The notes below the pieces were generated by a model that did not search any database, had not been told where the DNA came from, and worked only from the letters and a program-made list of their open reading frames with translations. This document shows positions 15,763 to 17,494 of a stretch of DNA of 64,000 nt, one piece after another; within the stretch, counting starts at the first letter, position 1, and each line of letters starts with the position of its first letter. The stretch covers positions 30,110 through 94,109 of the forward strand of contig JANQQP010000006.1 of assembly GCA_028285005.1 (NCBI GenBank), written 5' to 3'. Source of the DNA: Dehalococcoidia bacterium (GTDB taxonomy: Bacteria > Chloroflexota > Dehalococcoidia > Lucifugimonadales > Lucifugimonadaceae). The position numbers and the translations under genes were made by a program.

Positions 15763-16368
15763 TTAGAACGGTATGCCCCAGAGACCCATCCACTCCTCCA
15801 TGTTGCGCTCAATCACCATCCCCTGGCGTCGAGAGCGTGAGGCGAGTGAAACCTCTGTCGGCTTGTCGCGGTCTCCTGTCGATTCTCCGGTCGGCACAAA
15901 AGGGTAGAAGGCTTTGCGGTCGTAGCGGTATATCCAGTAGGTGCGGAGGCCGGAACGGAACGAGTTGTCATCAACCGTGCCCGTGAAGTACAGCTCGAAA
16001 ACGGCCGCAAGCAGAGTGTCCGCCGCGCCGTTGGCGCCCATGGCGTTGCCAACGGTGTATATCGAAGAGACGAGATCTTCGAAGTTCCCGTCCTCCATCA
16101 CGACCCATCGCATGCCATGCTCGTCATCCTGGATCTCGAACGCCGTTTTCGTGGCGCCAGGGCCGGAGTAAAGGACCGGGTCGAGCTCTGACTTGAGATC
16201 GCGAAGGAACGGGATTGACTCATCGTTCCTGAAAATGAGGCCGCCTCGGCGGGATGGGCTGATCTCACCTCGCGCCATGAGCCGCTGCTCTGCGCGAATG
16301 ATGCTGGACATTACCGACCAGTCTGTCTTCCCCTGAGGCCGCCTGCCGAACAATCGGTCCAATACCAC
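15763..16368 (-). CDS. PspA-associated PspAB-like protein
   Basis: A 201-residue soluble protein without signal or spans, beginning VLDRLFGRR and ending MEEWMGLWGIPF. The N-terminal small-domain pattern, the EIQDDEHGMRWVVMEDGNFEDLVSSIYTV segment and the position directly after htpX match the PspAB family. In actinobacteria and other Gram-positive-type phyla that family is encoded with htpX and with PspA. The molecular role is not established beyond a proposed part in envelope stress. It is 15 bases from htpX and surely co-transcribed. PspA and PspAA are not in the window. Identification rests on memory of the family and on context, so it is not certain. Confidence 0.6.
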   Translation of the reverse strand: MVLDRLFGRRPQGKTDWSVMSSIIRAEQRLMARGEISPSRRGGLIFRNDESIPFLRDLKSELDPVLYSGPGATKTAFEIQDDEHGMRWVVMEDGNFEDLVSSIYTVGNAMGANGAADTLLAAVFELYFTGTVDDNSFRSGLRTYWIYRYDRKAFYPFVPTGESTGDRDKPTEVSLASRSRRQGMVIERNMEEWMGLWGIPF

Positions 16369-16383
16369 TAAACTTCTGCCTCT

Positions 16384-17295
16384 CTACCTCATGCCGAACG
16401 ACATTCGGCGCTCAAGCTCTTTCAACCGGCGAATGCGCTCTGCCACCGGCGGGTGTGTTGAAAACAGGCTGCCACCACCACCGGACTTCAGTGCGACAGG
16501 GATGAACAGGAATGCGCTTGCAGTCTGCAACTTTCGCAGGTCTTGCTCGGGAATCCTAGCCATCTGGCCGCTGATCTTCTCTAGCGCCGATGCCAGTGCT
16601 CCGGGATCTCCTGAGATTTCTGCTCCGCTGTGGTCCGCGCCAAACTCCCTGTAGCGGGTCAGCGCAAGCACAAGGAGCTGACCGACAAAGTACACGACTA
16701 TTGTTGCTAGATACACGAGGGCGATGTTGCCTCCGCCTTCTCTGCGGCCACCTCCCATAAACATCCCGAAGAACAGGAAGGTCATCATGAAGCTGGTCAG
16801 CGTGACCAGGAAGTTTCCGATGGCCAGTACGCGCATATCCCGGTTTCTGACGTGGGCAAGCTCGTGAGCCAGCACAGCGTCCAACTCGCGTTCCGACAGG
16901 CGCTCTCTTATGCCAGTTGTGACGGCCACAAGAGAGTTTTCCGGATTTCGCCCGGTGGCGAACGCGTTCGGAGTTCGCGAATCGATGACGGCCACCTTCG
17001 GCATCGGCATGCCGGCACGGTCCGCCAGTCGCTTGATGGAGCGATGTAACTCGGGCTCTTCTTGAGCCGTTACAAGTTTTGCCCCGGACGCCCACAGGAT
17101 CATTCGGTCCGACGAGAAGTACTGAAAGAGTGCGAACCCACCGACGATCACGGCGATGAAGACGATGGGAACCGACAGTCCCCAGAGGACTATTGCAAAC
17201 AGCGCGTACAGGACCCCCAGCATGAACATCGTGAAGTACATGCGGGAGACAAGGCCCGGGTCGCGTTTGAACTTACGCATACCTAGACTGGTCAT
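16384..17295 (-). CDS. htpX: Membrane-bound zinc metalloprotease HtpX
   Basis: An M48B protease that degrades damaged membrane proteins, active at the cytoplasmic face. Two N-terminal spans (about residues 22-65 of the long ORF) precede LAHELAHVRNRD, the HExxH zinc site, with the third ligand in the later REFGADHSGAE. Two further hydrophobic segments (about 162-182 and 195-215) follow. The ORF track starts at a TTG (17307) that lies inside the ribosome-binding site. The ATG at 17295, with GGAGG five bases upstream, is the better start and gives 303 residues. A structured terminator-like leader ends exactly at this ribosome-binding site. First gene of the htpX-pspAB-amidotransferase-like unit. 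Confidence 0.94.
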   Translation of the reverse strand: MTSLGMRKFKRDPGLVSRMYFTMFMLGVLYALFAIVLWGLSVPIVFIAVIVGGFALFQYFSSDRMILWASGAKLVTAQEEPELHRSIKRLADRAGMPMPKVAVIDSRTPNAFATGRNPENSLVAVTTGIRERLSERELDAVLAHELAHVRNRDMRVLAIGNFLVTLTSFMMTFLFFGMFMGGGRREGGGNIALVYLATIVVYFVGQLLVLALTRYREFGADHSGAEISGDPGALASALEKISGQMARIPEQDLRKLQTASAFLFIPVALKSGGGGSLFSTHPPVAERIRRLKELERRMSFGMR

Positions 17296-17305
17296 CAGTT
17301 CCTCC

Positions 17306-17384
17306 AAAAAACGGGAAGATCAAAACAGTTCCAGAAACCTCGGCCTAACCGGGTCTCCAAAGTTCACTGTTGAATGATCTTCCC
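17306..17384 (-). promoter_or_regulatory. Structured leader / attenuator-like hairpin before htpX
   Basis: On the minus strand GGGAAGATCA pairs perfectly with TGATCTTCCC 52 bases later. Inside it AACAGT pairs with ACTGTT, and inside that GAGACC/GGTTTC and CGG/CCG can pair, giving one long interrupted hairpin. It is followed by G and six T residues (17306-17311), and the last T abuts GGAGG, the htpX ribosome-binding site. The layout is that of an intrinsic terminator or attenuator placed in the leader. The promoter at 17394-17422 would start RNA just before the stem. Pairing was done by eye. Confidence 0.6.
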
Positions 17385-17393
17385 CGTAATAGA

Positions 17394-17422
17394 ATTCTAG
17401 CGACAGTGCATTGCTGGCACAA
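17394..17422 (-). promoter_or_regulatory. Sigma-70 type promoter for htpX
   Basis: Minus strand TTGTGC, 17-base spacer, TAGAAT. The predicted start point is a few bases before the GGGGAAGATC arm of the leader hairpin, so the whole leader would be transcribed. Confidence 0.55.
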
Positions 17423-17494
17423 TCGCCGAGCGATAACCACTGTCGTGCTCCCCTGTTCTGTACTACGCAGTGGAGCAACTGGAGGATTGAGGAC

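Follow-up and report, generated by a model that had tools for sequence, protein, structure and literature searches.

In Bacillus subtilis, mRNA downstream of a hairpin, a ribosome-binding site or a bound protein is stabilised when such an element lies at the 5' end or close to it, and a hairpin or ribosome-binding site in this position stabilises mRNA against decay of the RppH/RNase J type (PMC3997798). RppH and RNase E require single-stranded 5' ends; BsRppH requires at least two unpaired nucleotides, and three or more unpaired 5' nucleotides may still permit its action (PMC3997798).

Among the described systems closest to the locus studied here are the stem-loops of Escherichia coli ompA and papA, and the aprE leader of B. 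subtilis. The leader of htpX resembles the ompA and papA stem-loops in its predicted position at the very 5' end of the mRNA and in the open ribosome-binding site downstream, and in that an effect of structure, and not of sequence, is expected. In contrast to these, the htpX leader consists almost entirely of a single long compound hairpin, an effect on mRNA lifetime is here one that we infer, and the genome shows RNase J and not RNase E/G. With the aprE leader it shares a 5' stem-loop followed by a strong Shine-Dalgarno (SD) sequence, in an organism that has RNase J. The two differ in gene and in phylum, and protection by the aprE leader is experimental, whereas protection by the htpX leader is putative.

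The htpX locus and its promoter

The window, a stretch of 64,000 nucleotides, comes from a Chloroflexota metagenome-assembled genome of 3.29 Mb that is 87.7% complete. It carries htpX and, immediately downstream, a gene for PspAB (Table 1), which probably form one operon. The HtpX protein matches NCBIfam NF002669 with 366 bits, against a cut-off of 341. A pairing of PspAB with a membrane metallopeptidase has been described, in association with PspA/PspAA (PMC11237479). The divergent neighbour, imp, lies on the forward strand with a TTG start at about 17495, and encodes an inositol-monophosphatase-family protein. We identified genes for RNase J (555 bits) and RNase III (216 bits) in the genome, both over their cut-offs; RNase E/G was sought and not found, an absence that is not certain given the completeness of the assembly.

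An earlier note on this DNA, made from the letters alone, had proposed a promoter of the form TTGTGC-17-TAGAAT for htpX, and both hexamers are present at this spacing. From them we deduced a transcription start (+1) near A17387, which gives a predicted 5' untranslated leader of about 92 nt to the ATG at 17295. A generic sigma-70 scan (9 of 12 rule) gives this promoter no score; it is nevertheless conserved across the genus. Six species of the genus have a readable htpX start, and TAGAAT is invariant in all of them; of the five sister species that have a readable leader, four carry an identical ATTGTGCC in the -35 region. The mean pairwise identity of the promoter is 78%, against 51% with shuffled partners (five species compared).

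Two further symmetrical elements overlie the promoter. A perfect palindrome, TAGAATTCTA, spans the -10 hexamer (window 17391-17400) and is kept in the sister species G002, G004 and G006, and similar sequences (TAAGATTCTA and TAAGATCTTA) occur in other genera. The idea that TAGAATTCTA is a repressor operator was rejected: it occurs once in the genome, which is roughly what chance gives, and no regulon was therefore inferred. In addition, a perfect 8-bp dyad, CGACAGTG/CACTGTCG (window 17401-17408 and 17438-17445, with arms 29 nt apart), brackets the htpX -35. This dyad folds in the leader of the imp direction, with z-scores of -5.0 to -5.7 that place it second of 138 leaders, and it is not retained in sister species.

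Table 1. Features of the htpX locus, in window coordinates.
Feature	Position	Strand	Basis or remarks
PspAB gene, next downstream of htpX in the same direction	15763..16368	-	Pfam PF22742, E 2.4e-35
htpX, M48 membrane zinc metalloprotease, 303 aa	16384..17295	-	NCBIfam NF002669, Pfam PF01435
Shine-Dalgarno GGAGG, 5 nt before ATG	17301..17305	-	Sequence
U6 tract	17306..17311	-	Sequence; terminator-like, window species only
Outer helix, 3' arm TGATCTTCCC	17313..17322	-	Minimum free energy (MFE) fold and arm complementarity
Inner hairpin inside the outer helix, with 6-bp and 14-bp helices and a 3-nt loop	17324..17371	-	MFE structure
Outer helix, 5' arm GGGAAGATCA	17375..17384	-	Starts at about +4; P(paired) at least 0.94, 5-70 °C
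-10 hexamer TAGAAT of the htpX promoter, 17-nt spacer to TTGTGC	17394..17399	-	Sequence
-35-like hexamer TTGTGC of the htpX promoter	17417..17422	-	Sequence

A stem-loop in the htpX leader

Nearly all of the leader is taken up by one predicted stem-loop, which starts about 3 nt after the predicted +1 in the window species. The 10-nt arms GGGAAGATCA and TGATCTTCCC are 100% complementary and form a perfect 10-bp outer stem around the inner hairpin, confirming the stem with further enclosed pairs that had been described in the earlier note. Folding of positions 17290-17390 gave a strong hairpin of -39 kcal/mol (z -3.9), with none of 200 shuffles as good, and the leader alone reached -38.0 kcal/mol (z -6.1), which none of 500 dinucleotide shuffles matched. 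Against a control set of 138 gene leaders, sampled from 441 kb of the same genome, the htpX leader had the lowest fold z-score (-6.85), ranking first.

The same note had described the stem as followed by six U residues abutting GGAGG. The U6 tract does adjoin GGAGG, but a single G (G17312) separates the outer stem from the U-run. T6 runs are rare in the 441-kb sample, with 13 on both strands, and TTTTTTGGAGG occurs once among its 726 GGAGG motifs.

The leader had been presented as belonging to no recognised riboswitch or leader class, and this was borne out by Rfam searches, which returned no match at the gathering threshold and none at E<=10 for the local stretch. Further copies of the leader were sought in the genome and none was found, indicating a single copy, and a DNA search with the leader across 250 genomes of the order returned only a 22-nt match at chance level. 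Searches of the open-access literature found no htpX leader element.

Conservation within the genus

We compared the window species with the five sister species that have a readable htpX start (G001, G002, G004, G005 and G006). All six possess a helix that begins at about -1 to +6 relative to the predicted start and ends 7-14 nt before the SD, which lies outside the hairpin in every species. The helix is formed by TGAGAGGCTATCG/CGATGGCTTCTTA in G002 (13 bp) and by TTTGGGGC/GCCCCAAA in G001. When 106 leaders were sampled in G002, that of htpX again ranked first. Across the six species the hairpin z-scores range from -0.9 to -6.1, and the weak sister hairpins, compared with shuffles, are those of G005 (z -0.9) and G004 (z -2.0). 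The U-run, in contrast, is missing from each of the five sister species, all of which retain the hairpin.

The letters of the leader are essentially unconserved, with an identity of 52% against 49% with shuffled partners. A MAFFT alignment of the six leaders misaligned the arms, and covariation was therefore tested by pairing arms across species. Arms paired within their own species gave a mean of -18.6 kcal/mol, against -11.7 kcal/mol for cross-species pairs, and the true assignment of arms was the second best of 720 permutations. The advantage of own-arm pairing, and the retention of shape while the letters turn over, indicate that the htpX leader structure is probably under selection. The earlier note had held that a lack of covariation in relatives would tell against a structured leader; the arm-pairing result leaves that leader standing. 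As a negative control we used the imp-direction leader of the same intergenic regions, which was unstructured in the five relatives (z +0.5 to -1.0) and structured in the window.

Possible functions of the leader

The leader structure is real and probably selected, and its function is most likely of a known kind. We favour the reading, to which we give about an even chance, that the htpX-pspAB mRNA carries a protective or insulating 5'-terminal stem-loop of the ompA/aprE type, because of the predicted extreme 5' position of the structure, its conservation in shape only, the open SD, and the presence of RNase J and RNase III. Such a stem-loop would hide the 5' end of the mRNA from pyrophosphohydrolase and from 5'-end-dependent nucleases (here RNase J), and would prevent pairing between the leader and the ribosome-binding site, and the stress-protease mRNA would thereby be long-lived and translatable. 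We infer the start of transcription, an effect on the lifetime of the mRNA and any benefit or physiological role. As expected of a stem-loop that stabilises mRNA, the SD is predicted to be accessible in the window species (unpaired 0.61-0.73), with lower values in some relatives (0.21-0.60), and structure is retained over sequence, as judged from the arm permutations and the leader identity given above. Against protection stand the differing lengths of the predicted unpaired 5' tail (0 to 5 nt across species), the weak hairpins of G005 and G004, and the size of the hairpin, which is bigger than simple protection requires. The protective model also leaves the U6 tract of the window species unexplained; this tract may be an attenuator of recent origin, may act as a U-rich enhancer ahead of the SD, or may have arisen by chance in a fast-changing spacer.

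The main rival to a protective stem-loop is attenuation specific to the window species, which we regard as possible but doubtful. On this reading a share of htpX transcription would end at the hairpin and U6 tract, and read-through would be permitted by a factor able to open the hairpin. Like the attenuators built on intrinsic terminators, the leader of the window species places a strong GC-rich hairpin ahead of the coding region (here the 10-bp stem, then G and U6), and the rarity of T6 runs and of TTTTTTGGAGG counts in favour of attenuation. Unlike them, it has neither an alternative antiterminator nor a leader peptide, and the sister species keep the hairpin and lack the U-run, indicating that the conserved function is something other than termination. 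Nor is there any sign of a competing antiterminator, since the outer arm is predicted to stay paired from 5 to 70 °C (Table 1), without an alternative fold, and the hairpin begins so close to +1 that no room is left for an antiterminator segment upstream. A leader peptide was ruled out, as an open reading frame shared across the species was sought and none was found. The earlier note had called the layout that of an attenuator or thermosensor; the structured leader in this proposal is real and conserved, but the U-run is limited to the window species, the predicted accessibility of the SD is flat and no antiterminator is evident, and the control by polymerase read-through that it had envisaged is thus disfavoured. 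We also searched for terminators at the ends of 313 genes with a simple rule, which gave 16, against 14 in shuffled sequence. Observed usage is in effect no more than shuffled, and this count therefore says little on the function of a hairpin with U-run in this genome; several of the sites listed by the rule are long GC-rich hairpins.

A broader proposal, which we consider rather unlikely, is that an undescribed leader acting through shape only controls the htpX-pspAB envelope-stress operon across the whole family, and that the gain of a U-tract in the window species has turned it into a terminator-based switch worked by a cellular factor.

We think it unlikely, too, that the leader is a site for RNase III or a target of an RNA-binding protein, at which cutting or binding of the double-stranded leader, dependent on shape and independent of sequence, would set the level of the mRNA. 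The duplex is conserved and its letters are not, RNase III is encoded in the genome, and the leaders of pnp and rnc show control of this kind (PMC3997798); the htpX leader shares with them a long double-stranded stretch. However, the known cases are mostly autoregulation by nucleases, whereas the htpX product is a membrane protease with no known feedback, and in the htpX leaders bulges interrupt the helices, whose lengths vary.

That the hairpin is a chance inverted repeat, or the remnant of a mobile element, is improbable. The two weakest of the sister hairpins lie near shuffle level, as such an origin would allow, but the leader occurs as a single copy in its genome and ranks first in the leader sets of two species, and the result of the arm-pairing permutation test also argues against it.

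An RNA thermometer for a heat-responsive protease gene is very improbable. HtpX is a stress protease, and the ROSE and fourU thermometers of heat-shock genes likewise combine a structured leader with a stress gene; in G002, moreover, the accessibility of the SD is predicted to rise modestly, from 0.21 to 0.60 between 5 and 50 °C. In contrast to ROSE and fourU, the htpX SD is not sequestered within the hairpin, and the Rfam search matched neither class. For the window species the predicted accessibility stays within 0.61-0.73 throughout 5-50 °C, with values of 0.72 (5 °C), 0.62 (37 °C) and 0.73 (50 °C). A thermometer was rejected on this temperature series, in which the SD is not paired in the cold and freed by warmth, and the temperature response suggested in the earlier note is likewise unsupported.

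A riboswitch, or another class of ligand-binding leader, would fit a long structured leader with no Rfam match and is scarcely credible here, since conservation would be highest in a ligand pocket, yet the loops and junctions have no conserved letters even within the genus, which speaks against the ligand response that had also been suggested.

The htpX leader provides a clear comparative case, from a group that is largely uncultured, of an mRNA 5' hairpin on which selection apparently acts through shape alone, and it points to a likely post-transcriptional control linked to the membrane-stress protease HtpX and to PspAB. Because sequence turnover between sister species is near-complete, elements of this type would probably escape covariance-model searches such as Rfam; a comparison of arm pairing within and between species can detect them.

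Leaders in other genera of the family

In the sister genus, we identified a different, short hairpin that abuts the SD, in which three pairs are changed on both sides. In the alignment of these leaders 81.5% of cells are paired, against 18-46% when slid, although the L090 row was misaligned by MAFFT, which lowers the support for the structure. Several leaders in other genera of the family show hairpins near the SD, most with z-scores that are not significant. The pair counts of the sister genus, on which this point depends, are suggestive of a family-wide conservation of the htpX leader hairpin.

Three relatives (L098, L100 and L110) gave htpX matches with one in-frame stop each, and have AT-rich upstream regions; the stops are possibly sequencing errors, or the genes pseudogenes. 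The htpX upstream region of L116 (G055), which belongs to another genus of the family, has a long hairpin with near-perfect pairing, AGAATCGTGGCGG..CCGCCCACGATTCT, directly after the -10; its relatives L117-L119 also carry a stretch like CACGATTCTAAG but lack the full stem.
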